From: Sinomonas gamaensis
GTDB lineage: Bacteria > Actinomycetota > Actinomycetes > Actinomycetales > Micrococcaceae
DNA: 64,000 nt
Direction of reading: 5' to 3'
NCBI RefSeq assembly: GCF_005876955.1
Contig: NZ_SSCL01000002.1
Span: 1 to 64,000 of the forward strand
A program made the translations under genes and the position numbers. Under the pieces are notes generated by a model. The model saw only the letters and a program-made list of their open reading frames with translations. It did not search any database and was not told the origin of the DNA. Numbering within the stretch: the stretch's first letter is position 1; every line of letters begins with the position of its first letter. Of the stretch, positions 12,496 to 17,299 are shown piece after piece.

Positions 12496-13134
12496 ATGGT
12501 GCCCGAAAGCCCAAGCCCGCAATCGGAACCCGTTCTGGGCGTTGGAGGCGCGGGCATTGCCGGCCGCGTCGGCGGCGGCGCTATCGTCGCCCCGTTTCAG
12601 GCCAAGCCAGGGTGCGGACCCGTGTGCATGTCCCGGGCGGCTCGCAGACGGCTTCGGCACCTCGGCCTAGGTCTTCACCTTCTGGGGCCTCGAGGACGGC
12701 CGGGAGCATCTGCTGCTGGGCCTGGGCGACTGGCATGGCGCCCTCGGCGGCGATTCGGCTGCGGCCCGGGCTCCACTGGTGCGCCCGCACAGCGAGTGCC
12801 TAACCGGGGACGTCCTGGGCTCGCAGCGGTGCGACTGCGGGCCGCAGCTGAGGGAATTCGGTCGAGCGGATCTCGGCAGAGGGCGGCTTCCTGCTGTACC
12901 TGCGGCAGGAGGGCCGGGGGATCGGATTGTATGCCAAGCTCGACGCCTATGCCTTCAGGACGGCGGGCTGGACACCTATGCGGCCAAGGTCGCCTTGGGC
13001 CGAGGACAGGACGAACGCGACTACCGGGCGGCGGCCCAGATGCTCCTCGCCGTGGGGCCACGAGGATCCGGCTGCTGACCAACAACACGGACAAGGCCGC
13101 CCAGATGGCCGCCTACGGCATCGCCGTGGCACAG
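12496..13134 (+). pseudogene. ribA: GTP cyclohydrolase II, 5-prime part, frameshifted
   Basis: A ribosome binding site (gaggaggag) precedes ATG 12496. Fragments in different frames are clearly RibA: RTRVHVP near 12615, SECLTGDVLGSQRCDCGPQL with the zinc-binding cysteines near 12785, [19 protein letters not shown] around 12885, then [20 protein letters not shown] and [20 protein letters not shown] up to 13134. Several indels separate them, so the enzyme (first step of riboflavin synthesis) cannot be made from this copy. The remaining C-terminus lies at 17191-17299, beyond the transposon that inserted here. Confidence 0.9.
13128..13134 (+). repeat. Target site duplication, left copy
   Basis: ggcacag at 13128-13134 is repeated exactly at 17191-17197, flanking the transposon. 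Joining the flanks after removing one copy restores the ribA frame: ...AVAQ continues directly into RVPTGVHLS. Confidence 0.9.
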
Positions 13135-13184
13135 TGACTATGGCAGCTTGATTCAGGACCGGTGTGACGGCTTGATTCAGGACC
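13135..13184 (+). repeat. Left terminal inverted repeat
   Basis: 50 bp containing two ttgattcaggacc units (13148-13160, 13172-13184); a third unit lies at 13216-13228. It pairs with 17141-17190 with seven mismatches. Confidence 0.9.
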
Positions 13185-13279
13185 ACCTGCCTTCCGACCG
13201 GCGTGTTGTGACGGTTTGATTCAGGACCACCTTCGACGGTGGGTATGCCCGATGGGTTTGCCTACGTGAGGTGGTTCGG

Positions 13280-14949
13280 ATGGGAAGTCGTGTGGAGCTG
13301 TTCGCCCGGATCCGGCGGGACGAGCGGGTCGAGGGACTCGGGATCCGGGCCCTGGCCCGGAAGTACGGTGTGGGCAGGGATACTGTGCGGATGGCGCTGT
13401 CGCGGGCGGATCCGCCGCCGCGGAAAACGCCGGTGCGGGCCTCGCCCAGACTGGACCCGTTCAAGGACGCGATCGATGCGATGCTGCGGGAGGACCTGGA
13501 GGCCCCGCGGAAGCAGCGGCATACCGCGACGAGGATCCTGGCCCGGCTCGCCGAAGAGCACGGGGCGGTGGATCTGTCGTATTCGACGGTGCGGGACTAT
13601 GTGCGGGTCCGCCGGGCGCAGATCGACCTCGCAGCGGGGCGCCGGGTGGAGGTGTTCGTCCCACAGGAGCACGCCCCCGGGCGGAAGCCGAGGTCGACTT
13701 CGGCGAGCTCTGGGTGGTGCTTGCTGGGGTGAAGACGAAGTGCCACATGTTCGTCATGCGCCTGAGCCACAGCGGCCGTGCCGTCCACCGGATCTACCCC
13801 TCACAGGCGCAGGAGGCCTTCCTCGAGGGCCACATCGATGCGTTCGAGGAGTTCGGCGGGATCCCCTTCCGGCACATCCGCTACGACAACCTCAATTCCG
13901 CAGTCAGCGCGGTCATCTACGGCCGCAACCGCCAGCGCGAGGAGAACGAGCGCTGGATCCTCTTCAAATCCCACTACGGCTTCGACGCCTTCTACTGCCA
14001 GATAGGACTGGCCGGGGCCCACGAGAAGGGCGGCGTCGAGGGCGAGGTCGGCCGATTCCGGCGCACCTGGCTCTCCCCGATGCCCGTCGTCGCGTCCCTG
14101 GGCGAGCTGAACGAGCGCATCAAGGAATGGGACACCCGCGACCTGAAGCGGCGGATCGAGACCCGGATCCGCACCGTGGGGGAGGACTTCGAAACCGAAC
14201 GCCCGCTCCTGACCCCGCTGCCTGCCCAGCGGTTCGACCCGGGACTGGTCCTGCACCCGAGGGTGGACCGCTCGGCACTGATCACCGTGCGGATGGCCAA
14301 GTACTCCGTCCCAGCCCGGCTCATCGGACGCCGGGTGCGGGTCTCGCTCCGTGCCTCGGAACTGGTCGTCTTCGACGGGCGCACGGTCGTGGCCCGACAC
14401 GGGAGAGTCTCGGCCAAGGGCGGCTCGTCCATCGCCCTGGACCACTACCTCGAGGTCCTGAGGACCAAGCCCGGCGCCCTCCCCGGCTCCACCGCGCTCG
14501 CCCAGGCCAGGGCCGCGGGCGCGTTCACCGCCGCCCATGAAGCGTTCTGGCAGGAGGCCCGCAGGGTCGAAGGCGACGCCGCGGGCACCAGGGCCCTGAT
14601 CGAGGTGCTCCTGCTGCACCGGAGCATGCAGGCCCCGGACGTCATCGCCGGCATCGAAGCAGCCCTCTCCGTCGGGGCGGTCTCCCCGGACGTGGTCGCC
14701 GTAGAGGCACGCCTGCACGCCAGTGGGCCCAGTTCGGGCCGCCATCACGACGACCACGATGAACGACGCGAGCATCGCGTTGTCAGCCTGACCCAGCGCC
14801 GCCTCGCCGACCCCGCCGCGGTCATCGCCGGCCTCCCGGCCGACACACGGCCGCTGCCGAGCCTGACCGCCTACGACGAACTCCTCCAACGCCGCACCGC
14901 TGCCGACGAGACCACCAATGCAGACAGGGAAGGGACGAGCGCATCATGA
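13280..14949 (+). pseudogene. istA: IstA transposase, IS21 family, one -1 frameshift
   Basis: The first frame starts at ATG 13280 with ribosome binding site gaggtgg and encodes the HTH region (LGIRALARKYGVGRDTVRMAL) and linker to about 13680. The second frame carries the integrase core and C-terminal region to 14949 (HIRYDNLNSAV, YGFDAFYCQIGLAGAHEKGG, RMAKYSVPARLIGRRVRVSL). The frames join by a -1 shift in the run cccccggg at 13673-13680, which restores AEVDFGELW with the first catalytic Asp. Without it the transposase lacks its whole DDE domain. This could be an indel, an assembly error or programmed slippage. The stop overlaps the istB start (ATGA). Confidence 0.85.
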
Positions 14950-15746
14950 GCACCCCGACGAAAGTCAACCCGAGCCTGCGCAGGCAGCGGAGCATGACCG
15001 AGGAAGCGGCCCAGGCAGCGGTGGACCAGGCCTGCCGCCGCCTGCGCCTGCCCACCATGCGCGCGGTCATGGAGGAAGCGGTCAAGGTCGCCGAGCGCGA
15101 ACAGCTCTCCTACGCCGGCTTCCTCGCCGAGCTGCTCCTGGCCGAGTGCGACGACCGGGACCGCCGCTCGGTCGAGCGCAGGGTCAGGGGTGCGGGGTTC
15201 CCGCGGCAGAAGTGGCTCGGAGACTTCGACTTCGAGGCCAACCCCAACGTCAACCCCGCCGTGATCCACACCCTCGCCCAGGCCGACTGGATCCGCCGCG
15301 GCGACCCGCTCTGCCTCATCGGGGACTCCGGGACCGGCAAGTCCCACCTGCTCATCGCCCTCGGAACCGCCGCGGCCGAGAAGGGCTTCAGGGTCAAGTA
15401 CACCCTCGCGACCAAGCTTGTGAACGAGCTCGTCGAGGCCGCCGACGAGAAGCAGCTCGCCCGCACCATCGCCCGCTACGGGCGGGCCGACCTCCTCGTC
15501 ATCGACGAGCTCGGCTATATGGAGCTCGACCGCCGCGGCGCCGAGCTGCTCTTCCAGGTCCTCACAGAGCGGGAGGAGAAGGCCTCCGTCGCGATCGGGT
15601 CCAACGAGGCCTTCAGCGGCTGGACCAAGACCTTCACCGACCCCCGCCTCTGCGCTGCCATAGTCGACCGCCTCACCTTCAACGGCACCATCATCCAGAC
15701 TGGAACAGACTCCTACCGCCTCAACCACACACGCGCCCACGTCTGA
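14946..15746 (+). CDS. istB: IstB ATPase, IS21-family transposition helper
   Basis: 266 residues, DnaA-like AAA+ ATPase. Walker A is GDSGTGKSHL (about residue 119), Walker B is LLVIDELGYMELD, and the C-terminal sensor region is DRLTFNGTIIQTGTDSYRL. IstB stacks ATP-dependently on target DNA and activates IstA. The ATG overlaps the istA stop by 4 bp, the standard coupled arrangement. The frame is intact and full length, in contrast to istA. Confidence 0.95.
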   Translation: MSTPTKVNPSLRRQRSMTEEAAQAAVDQACRRLRLPTMRAVMEEAVKVAEREQLSYAGFLAELLLAECDDRDRRSVERRVRGAGFPRQKWLGDFDFEANPNVNPAVIHTLAQADWIRRGDPLCLIGDSGTGKSHLLIALGTAAAEKGFRVKYTLATKLVNELVEAADEKQLARTIARYGRADLLVIDELGYMELDRRGAELLFQVLTEREEKASVAIGSNEAFSGWTKTFTDPRLCAAIVDRLTFNGTIIQTGTDSYRLNHTRAHV

Positions 15747-15756
15747 CTTACCTGCT

Positions 15757-16344
15757 TCACTGGGCGGGCGACTCTTTCACGAGGAAGTTGTCGGCCTCGA
15801 CGATCCACTTGCCGGATGGGTCCTTGGCCATGGCGACTTGGCTGCTGTTCGGCATGATCAGCCAGGCCTCTTCGCTACCTTCGGGATTCCCCGTCCGCAG
15901 GCCGTAGGTATCGAACCCTTTGATCCGGGTGCATCCCATCGATTTGCCGCTGCCGTCTGGGCCAACGGGGATCAAGCAGATCAGATCGGTTCCCTTGGAG
16001 ACGGCGTAGTAGCGCAATGTCGTTCCTTTGCCGAGATAGCGGGAACTCCCGAGATCTATCCCGCTCTTCCCGAAGGTATTGGCTGCAGGGGTCGGCAGCA
16101 TGTCCGACGGCTGCTGGGCGGCAGCCATCGCCGGGACGATCTCTGAAGCCTTCGAGACGCCCTGCGGTTGCGAGGCTGCGATCCCTCCAATGGCTGCCCC
16201 GCCCACGAGTCCGGCCCCAGCTGCAATAACCCCGAAGCGGATCCACAGGCTTCTGCTCCAAGAGGGCGATGGGTGCTGCACGCGGGCAACGAGCTCTGCG
16301 CGCAGCGCGGCGCTGAACCGGTCGTCGACTTCAACGTTGCTCAT
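15757..16344 (-). CDS. Single-TM protein coupled to ECF sigma factor (anti-sigma-like)
   Basis: 195 residues: a charged cytoplasmic N-terminus of about 32 residues (VDDRFSAALRAELVARVQH), one membrane segment near 33-55 (FGVIAAGAGLVGGAAIGGIA) and an extracytoplasmic domain of about 135 residues with two cysteines (DLICLI, MGCTR). The start overlaps the sigma stop by 4 bp, so the pair is co-translated. Position and topology fit a membrane anti-sigma or accessory sensor. The short N-terminus lacks a zinc anti-sigma HxxxCxxC motif, so sigma binding is inferred only. It lies inside the transposon. Confidence 0.65.
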   Translation of the reverse strand: MSNVEVDDRFSAALRAELVARVQHPSPSWSRSLWIRFGVIAAGAGLVGGAAIGGIAASQPQGVSKASEIVPAMAAAQQPSDMLPTPAANTFGKSGIDLGSSRYLGKGTTLRYYAVSKGTDLICLIPVGPDGSGKSMGCTRIKGFDTYGLRTGNPEGSEEAWLIMPNSSQVAMAKDPSGKWIVEADNFLVKESPAQ

Positions 16345-16949
16345 AGCCCTTCTCCTTCCAAGGCCGGTGTCCTCGCGGGAGTCATCTGGGGGTGGGCTCT
16401 AGTGAGGGCTGCCCGCAGGTGCTGGCGCGCCCGGTGCATCCGGCTTTTAGCCGCCGCCGGGCTGATATTCAGAGCCGCGGCCGCGGCAGCAAGCGTGTAC
16501 TCCTCGAAGACGACCAGGGTCACCAGATGCAGGTCGATGGGCTTCAGAGTCCCCAGCGCGGAGGACAAGTCGTGGTCGAGCTGTCCCTGCAGCCCGAGTG
16601 GGCCCTCCTCCGCCGTGCTGTCCGACCGGTCCTGGGAGCGGGGCAGCGAATCCAGCAGTTTCCGGTAGCGCCGCCCCGCCCTTCCGTGGTTGCGGGCCAC
16701 GTTCGTTGTCGTGACAAGCAGCCACGGCAGGATCGACCCTTCCACGACCCGGACGTCTTGCCGGCGCCGCCACAGCTCCAAGAACGCCGAGGCCATGATG
16801 TCCTCGGCATCGTGGTGGTTCCCGCAGACCCGGTACGCGTGGTGGAACACCCGATCGCGGTGCCTGTCATACAGGACACCGAACGCCTCGCCCTCGCCTC
16901 GGAGGCTGCGGGACCACAGGGCCTCTTCACCGGCTTCGACGCTCCCCAT
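16341..16949 (-). CDS. ECF RNA polymerase sigma factor, transposon cargo
   Basis: 202 residues from ATG 16949; the frame extends 21 codons upstream, but this start fits the family (LWSRSLRGEGEAFGVLYDRH). Sigma region 2 shows VFHHAYRVCGNHHDAEDIMASAFLELWRR with WLLVTTTNVARN. Region 4 shows VVFEEYTLAAAAAALNISPAAAKSRMHRARQHLR, including the helix-turn-helix. It would redirect transcription to a small regulon and likely its own promoter. It is coupled to the membrane protein gene and sits, antisense to istAB, inside the right inverted repeat. Confidence 0.88.
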   Translation of the reverse strand: MGSVEAGEEALWSRSLRGEGEAFGVLYDRHRDRVFHHAYRVCGNHHDAEDIMASAFLELWRRRQDVRVVEGSILPWLLVTTTNVARNHGRAGRRYRKLLDSLPRSQDRSDSTAEEGPLGLQGQLDHDLSSALGTLKPIDLHLVTLVVFEEYTLAAAAAALNISPAAAKSRMHRARQHLRAALTRAHPQMTPARTPALEGEGL

Positions 16950-17140
16950 GCCCTGTATTGTCCGGAACCACCGCGAAGGTTTCACCCATCCCGTCGGAAA
17001 ATTCAAACCCACCTGGGGAATCGAGCCGCGCGGCGAAGCCTGGCCTTCCTCGGTGCAGTCGCCGAAGGTGGCTGAAGGCCGGCACGAAGGGCAGAACGGG
17101 ATGTCAGGGCACGACCACCCCTCGGCTCAGTTCAGGAAGG

Positions 17141-17190
17141 GGTCCTGAATCGAACCGTCATGCCGGTCCTGAATCAAGTTGACATAGCCA
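17141..17190 (-). repeat. Right terminal inverted repeat
   Basis: 50 bp, inverse of the left end, with two ggtcctgaatc units (17141, 17165). Its outer end, ...gacatagcca, abuts the target duplication at 17191. Confidence 0.9.
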
Positions 17191-17299
17191 GGCACAGCGC
17201 GTGCCTACCGGAGTGCACCTTTCCGCCGCCAACGCCGCCTACCTCATGGCAAAGAGCGATCACAGCGCCCACACCATCAACCTCGGAGCCGGCCTCTAG
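17191..17299 (+). pseudogene. ribA: GTP cyclohydrolase II, 3-prime part
   Basis: From the right copy of the target duplication the frame reads RVPTGVHLSAANAAYL, then MAKSDHSAHTINLGAGL and TAG at 17297-17299. This is the C-terminus of GTP cyclohydrolase II and continues in frame from the fragment ending at 13134 once the transposon and one ggcacag are removed. It proves that the host gene of the insertion was ribA, already or later damaged by indels in its 5-prime part. Confidence 0.9.

Follow-up and report, generated by a model that had tools for sequence, protein, structure and literature searches.

An IS21-family element with an ECF sigma factor gene in its cargo slot in Sinomonas gamaensis, and its actinobacterial relatives

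The subject of this analysis is an element of the IS21 family of insertion sequences (IS) on contig NZ_SSCL01000002.1 of Sinomonas gamaensis (RefSeq assembly GCF_005876955.1), located in a 64,000-nucleotide stretch, hereafter termed the window, to whose positions all coordinates refer. It is highly probable that this complete element of 4056 bp (13135–17190, forward strand) is a cargo-bearing member of an actinobacterial IS21 clade whose exchangeable slot is enclosed by istB and a roughly 50-bp right end, the slot being occupied here by a probably autoregulated extracytoplasmic function (ECF) sigma factor gene and a probable anti-sigma partner. The letters L, G and C precede our own handles for loci, genomes and contigs.

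Ends, genes and insertion site of the element

The element is bounded by 50-nucleotide terminal inverted repeats (13135–13184 and 17141–17190), complementary at 43 of 50 positions (86%) and scoring 46.4 and 44.2 against the end profile, and these are flanked by an exact 7-bp target duplication, GGCACAG, at 13128–13134 on the left and 17191–17197 on the right. Both the matching ends and the duplication had been reported in a preliminary description of this DNA and were confirmed, and its central proposal, an IS21 unit whose cargo is an ECF sigma gene with a membrane partner, is supported. The left end (13135–13228, forward strand) bears three copies of TTGATTCAGGACC, at 13148, 13172 and 13216, and the right end (17141–17190, minus strand) two, at 17141 (with one mismatch) and 17165. 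Termini of the form TG...CA, a motif repeated at both ends and a short duplication are marks of the IS21 family that this element shows; beyond istA and istB, two further genes (1.4 kb) lie between istB and the right end. The cargo slot, which separates the istB stop and the right end (15747–17140), was delimited by the identity with a sister element in genome G104, which stops at the istB stop, and no inner end-like sequence was detected within it. Across the genome of 4.32 Mb in 35 contigs this is the sole full copy; an istB 3' piece lies at C13:10.9 kb.

The helper gene istB (14946–15746, forward strand) overlaps the stop of istA and is intact, its product scoring 258 bits against IS21_help_AAA (NF038214, cut-off 200) and also matching PF01695. 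The preliminary description was right that istAB is present, with istA (13271–14949, forward strand) still recognisable, but it had overlooked that the latter is split by a single-base frameshift near 13.68 kb into two open pieces (13271–13732 and 13714–14949). The pieces align in register to positions 1–117 and 129–294 of the 294 in NF033546; each alone falls below the cut-off of that model (160 bits) because of the frameshift, and Mu-transpos_C_2 is matched above its cut-off. By these family models istA is of the IS21 DDE transposase type and IstB is an AAA+ helper ATPase. The istA relative in G104, 91% identical, is a single open frame of 558 residues. Barring a sequencing error as the source of the frameshift, the window copy is probably non-autonomous, and since its own istA is broken it would probably need IstA supplied by another element.

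The insertion interrupts the C-terminus of RibA. After excision of the element and one copy of the duplication, the joint reads ...GIAVAQ followed by RVPTGVHLSAANAAYLMAKSDHSAHTINLGAGL in one frame, such that the earlier statement of an in-frame rejoining holds locally across the joint but not for the gene as a whole, of which the upstream part (12496–13137) runs in several frames. The target accordingly has the appearance of a gene in decay, ribA having either been or become a pseudogene. A RibA-type match crossing the insertion point was found in all 14 other genomes of the genus, which does not imply identity of the locus; nine have such a match at 57–70% identity, and five have only a paralogue at 37–41%. 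Further RibA-type genes are present in the same genome on C33 and at C12:304 kb.

The cargo slot across the clade

The element in G104, a genome of the same genus, is 90.6% identical to that of the window over 2613 bp, from the left end through the istB stop, where the identity ends. In its slot follow about 4 kb of other genes in place of the sigma pair, and then the right end and a 6-bp duplication, TTTCGC. These genes include a member of the lactococcin 972 family (34.8 bits, cut-off 32.1), a 666-residue gene without family match, and an ABC ATPase resembling the lactococcin 972 exporter (below its cut-off); no sigma match at E ≤ 1e-30 was found in G104. In G200, also of this genus, two cargo-free copies of 2699 bp are near-identical, and a 6-bp duplication flanks one of them. 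A situation in which relatives end directly after istB and the sigma operon is fixed host DNA was not found: seven of the 75 elements with both ends do stop right behind istB, but the sigma pair of the window lies inside ends flanked by a duplication, and its closest relative, in G104, holds other genes at that position.

A set of 86 loci was assembled to survey the clade: the best 80 of 532 IstB relatives confirmed among genome contigs, all 77% identical or more, together with the window and five loci from plasmids. Both ends were located in 63 of these with a 34-bp end profile. On adding G104, G200, L186, L190 and eight of ten further plasmid loci, both ends were found in 75 of 98. The gap between istB and the right end in these 75 elements is below 150 bp in seven, 312–346 bp in four and 504–7724 bp in 64; 68 of the 75 thus hold 0.3–7.7 kb past istB, and cargo, treated at first as an oddity of the window copy, proves to be the rule in the clade. 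A duplication of at least 5 bp flanks 53 of the 69 elements with enough flanking sequence, as against 4 of 3192 pairings when left and right flanks of different elements were matched as a chance control. The main ranking of ends gave a bonus for a duplication; a stricter repeat using leave-one-out profiles and no bonus called 72 of the 98 loci, 69 with the same ends, with a duplication in 51 of 66 testable elements. Dereplication left 60 elements, seven of which have no cargo. One locus of the survey, L099, lies on a contig titled Vibrio cholerae, a doubtful label given that its IstB, at 80% identity, belongs to this actinobacterial clade.

Identical loaded elements were further found at different sites. 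An element of 3903–3904 bp carrying MscL occurs in four genomes at distinct sites with the duplications TGGCAC, GCCACC, GCCCAG and GCCAAC, and one of 4576 bp carrying merA in three genomes with CACGGT, ACTATG and AACGAT. These duplications in other members support our inference that the loaded unit is transposed by its own IstAB: IstA would bind the repeats at both ends and, together with IstB, move everything between them, the insertion producing a duplication of 5–9 bp (mostly 6).

The same evidence bears on the suggestion that the boundary is a product of chance, with a short IS21 merely standing beside host genes, the distant right end being unrelated or a remnant, and the sigma pair being trapped host DNA. 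Such an arrangement would accord with the seven short relatives among 75, with the remnants in L127, L117 and L104 and the look of a fusion of two copies in some loaded elements, and with L215, where a sigma pair stands outside a short IS21. It is opposed by the lack of an inner end in the window element and by a duplication that flanks the outer ends, as well as by the mobile loaded elements just described and the other genes in the same slot of G104; the duplications have already largely refuted it, and we hold it to be highly improbable.

Clustering 67 elements by their cargo proteins (single linkage, a few links being weak) gave 35 cargo types and five elements without cargo, and the families were assigned by scanning 60 proteins with Pfam and 10 with NCBIfam. 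Metal resistance recurs: mercury(II) reductase (merA) was found above cut-off in L069 and L065 and also on plasmids (L216, L220, L224); cation efflux proteins in L098 and L071; an ArsR regulator with a P-type ATPase and lspA on a plasmid (L219); and, in an Actinomyces (L100), a copper operon comprising a heavy-metal P-type ATPase, a multicopper oxidase and a two-component pair. Other slots hold MscL (L113), tryptophanyl-tRNA synthetase (TrpRS; L036), prolyl-tRNA synthetase (ProRS; L127) or lactococcin 972 (L169), and the remainder includes GGDEF and glyoxalase-fold proteins, an ABC transporter, TetR with a CAAX protease, and many unknown proteins, ten of which yielded no defence genes in PADLOC. 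Three loci are recorded as side observations. On a Cutibacterium modestum plasmid (L223), istB is followed by an arsenic operon and then by a right end of this clade, while istA is truncated and no left end remains, and the TrpRS element is present both on a Microbacterium plasmid (L036) and in a metagenome bin labelled Acidobacteria (L095), a label that may be wrong.

Related elements that differ in cargo were compared in nine pairs, with cores 79–95% identical. In eight of the nine, identity is lost within an interval reaching from 4 bp upstream to 19 bp downstream of the istB stop, and a right-end block of 47–112 bp is alike again in six; between L082 (no cargo) and L084 (1.0 kb of cargo), the core is 94.2% and the right end 94.4% identical. 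A core tree of 67 elements requires 43 changes of cargo label; for the ECF label, starred branches force three. The window element and the bacteriocin-bearing G104 element are sisters with a support of 100, L103 is sister to an element with thioredoxin-type cargo, and L070 to one with cation efflux cargo. From the pair comparisons and the core tree it is therefore concluded, at the level of sequence comparison, that slot contents have been exchanged often and that ECF cargo entered the clade on at least three occasions, in both orientations. The genes in the slot would be swapped between elements of the clade.

How the cargo enters is a separate question. It is possible, if somewhat doubtful, that the elements are composite or fused structures, with cargo entering between adjacent copies, the outer right end being used and remnants of the second copy left behind. 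L127 retains reversed istB pieces together with a strong inner right end, L117 an istB 3' piece as well as an inner right end, and L104 an istB piece; these remnants suggest that at least some of the cargo was taken in by this route. Tandem pairs of IS21 are known (PMC9330008). Such a fusion is a route of capture and no alternative to a cargo-bearing IS21 clade. Of the 62 cargo slots only four contain inner end-like sequences, that of L098 lying 68 bp from the true end, and the rate of such sequences (5 in 146 kb of slots vs 12 in 656 kb of flanks) is not clearly higher than in the surroundings; no second-copy remnant is present in the window element. Inner right ends were accordingly rejected as proof of the capture route, being too weak for that purpose.

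Outside the clade the arrangement differs. An order-wide sample gave 35 IS21 loci, 25 of them with an IstB at 26–37% identity; in all ten of these with clear ends, the right end lies 47–72 bp past istB. Two of the six loci at or above 77% IstB identity were resolved, both with cargo. For L183 the second candidate was counted (equal to L182 of the same genome), the top-ranked one being a 10.6-kb alternative, and the remaining 15 of the 25 distant loci, together with three at 59–66% IstB identity, had unresolved ends and stand outside the counts. As far as sampled, the habit of carrying cargo appears to be a feature of this clade. The window itself contains a second, ordinary IS21 of another clade (L200, within 54.0–57.0 kb, istB at 55.85 kb on the minus strand), which is 2155 bp long, with an IstB 34% identical, a right end 47 bp past istB and a 5-bp duplication, CGCGC.

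We lean slightly towards a broader proposition, namely that the clade may represent a general family of gene-carrying transposons of Actinobacteria with a fixed slot, exchanging cargo block-wise by an undescribed mechanism and spreading genes for metal resistance and bacteriocins, spare tRNA synthetases and, on three or more occasions, ECF switches.

The sigma factor and its partner

The sigma factor gene of the window element (16341–16949, minus strand) encodes 202 residues from the likely ATG at 16949, a longer frame starting at 17012, and Sigma70_r2 (PF04542) and Sigma70_r4_2 (PF08281) are matched above cut-off across this product, which has regions 2 and 4 without regions 1 and 3, as ECF factors do. 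The adjoining partner gene (15757–16344, minus strand; 195 residues) has its start within the end of the sigma gene, the two sharing 4 bp. The coupling of sigma gene and partner on the minus strand is as described earlier; the single transmembrane segment ascribed to the partner corresponds to one hydrophobic stretch judged by eye rather than by a transmembrane predictor. Its short N-terminal part is shared with the partners of other pairs in an alignment, in which the extracytoplasmic domain differs. A structure model reached a mean predicted local distance difference test score (pLDDT) of 72.1, with low confidence in the N-terminal half. The partner probably acts as an anti-sigma factor and sensor, which would hold the sigma factor at the membrane until an extracellular signal frees it.

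A search for an ECF promoter motif in the element and nearby yielded one block, TGAAACCTT-N11-CGGACAATA, at 16955–16984 (minus strand) before the sigma ATG. With a spacer of N11 (or 12) and 9 bp ahead of the ATG, it was present in nine of ten sigma loci examined and absent from L070. In the block region upstream of the ATG, third codon positions are conserved at 0.86, vs 0.88 and 0.83 for the other positions; inside the sigma gene the third positions stand at 0.60, vs 0.83 at second positions. Since third positions in the block are as conserved as the others, and since its spacing is shifted by one base in one sigma locus, the block is non-coding. It is probably an autoregulated ECF promoter with a leaderless start, and the freed sigma factor would raise its own transcription and that of few other genes.

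The preliminary description had considered a reprogramming of host genes, or control of the element's own movement, by the sigma factor, and neither idea found support. One perfect match of the block exists in the genome, directly ahead of the window sigma gene itself, and 15 matches with at most two mismatches compare with 7 for a reversed control; no block stands ahead of istA, the sole match in the window being that before the sigma gene. A form of control in which stress frees the sigma factor to switch on istAB or nearby genes could draw on the threefold gain of ECF cargo in the clade and on the promoter block that the module brings with it. Set against these are the distribution of block matches just given, the roughly 35 other cargo types that occupy the same slot, and the fact that similar pairs stand alone: of 396 genomes of the order, 19 have a sigma match at E ≤ 1e-45, including the window genome, and none of the 18 others (among 395) has istA or istB within 1.5 kb. 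We therefore regard such control as very unlikely.

Within 197 genomes of the family, 15 of which have a sigma match at E ≤ 1e-30, no other pair lies within 1.5 kb of istA or istB. The association of istB with such an ECF gene was nevertheless met twice more inside elements of the same clade, in L103 (sigma cargo 57% identical, plus orientation) and L070 (about 30%, minus orientation as in the window), both found via the istB search and not the sigma search. On plasmid p2MP (L215), a related sigma/partner pair stands immediately beyond the right end of a short IS21 from a different clade and is therefore not cargo. Related sequences were also seen elsewhere. The Sinomonas gamaensis genome has a frameshifted, degenerate sigma/partner pair related to the cargo at C1:302.7 kb (L040), at which no ends of this IS21 clade were found, and a partner-like stretch without a sigma gene at C13:29.2 kb (L042). 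On pASPHE301 (L214) a related pair has recombinase, Mu-type transposase and AAA ATPase genes as neighbours and is possibly the cargo of another transposon type. A pair in G164 (L045, L046) was rejected as a transposon, the 3368-bp repeat concerned (99.8% identical) lacking terminal inverted repeats.

Several points weigh against the interpretation of the window element as a loaded member of a cargo-bearing clade. The sample was selected by high IstB similarity and contains duplicates (60 groups after dereplication); one or both ends are missing from 23 of the 98 loci, partly from contig stops; and 16 of the 69 testable elements have no 5-bp duplication. To this are added the duplication bonus in the ranking, the ends of L068 and L096 set by hand, L059, L060 and L094 falling under the stricter threshold, and L127 being called at its inner right end. 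In the pair comparisons, the identity of L092 and L103 continues 160–190 bp past istB, and right-end similarity was undetected in three of the nine pairs. As for the window copy, its istA is broken, the loaded unit was found at one site only, so that the case for its movement with the sigma cargo is drawn from the ends and the duplication, and the partner has no known domain, with no Pfam match, CU044_5270 far below cut-off and no fold match of its model at E ≤ 0.001. On the other side, the ends, the duplications, the slot, the differing cargo on near-identical istAB and the repeated independent ECF cargo can be read from the DNA itself, and to these we add as inferences the anti-sigma action of the partner and the autoregulation of the sigma gene.

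Significance and relation to known systems

IS21 is regarded as an insertion sequence of two genes; if a common actinobacterial clade of it is loaded with operons, annotation pipelines would misplace the right end of these elements and credit the host with mobile merA, copper operons and bacteriocins. Near-identical pairs with different or no cargo, such as L082 and L084 or the window and G104 elements, open the capture and swapping of genes by a simple IS to direct testing. Carried by an element of this kind, a sigma switch would be a route for moving regulation and not enzymes alone, new hosts receiving a transcription module that is ready-made and regulates itself.

The sigma module resembles known pairs of an ECF sigma factor and a membrane anti-sigma factor in its regions 2 and 4, the 4-bp gene overlap and the promoter-like block before the sigma gene, and differs in that the window partner has no recognised anti-sigma domain. 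With Tn7-like and Tn5053/Mu-type transposons the element shares a related helper ATPase (PMC10122671) and, according to PMC8649781, a cargo decoupled from the core that can include metal resistance; in contrast, the core of the window element consists of istAB alone with IS21-type repeats, and no target selector or resolvase was seen in it.

The closest comparison is with the IS21 family and with the transporter IS (tIS). PMC10122671 describes IS21 members as two genes between two inverted repeats, with ends bearing L1/L2 and R1/R2 repeats, and the likeness to IS21 and IS5376 as set out there includes overlapping istA and istB, TG...CA ends with multiple repeats and a short duplication; the difference is that those hold two genes only, whereas 68 of 75 elements here have 0.3–7.7 kb extra past istB. 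IS copies with passenger genes are in print as tIS, the case named in the consulted parts of the sources (PMC3129680, PMC7986276, PMC9330008) being of the IS6 family; no description of a cargo-bearing IS21 was found in the literature searched, a scope that excluded ISfinder and the main IS reviews, where a prior description is possible. Like a tIS, the window element is a single IS with passenger genes unrelated to transposition inside its own ends. It differs from the IS6-family case in its family, for which none is named in those excerpts, and in belonging to a whole clade with about 35 cargo types and operons of up to 7 kb. Passenger-carrying IS are thus already known, and it is the cargo habit within IS21 that appears to be new here.

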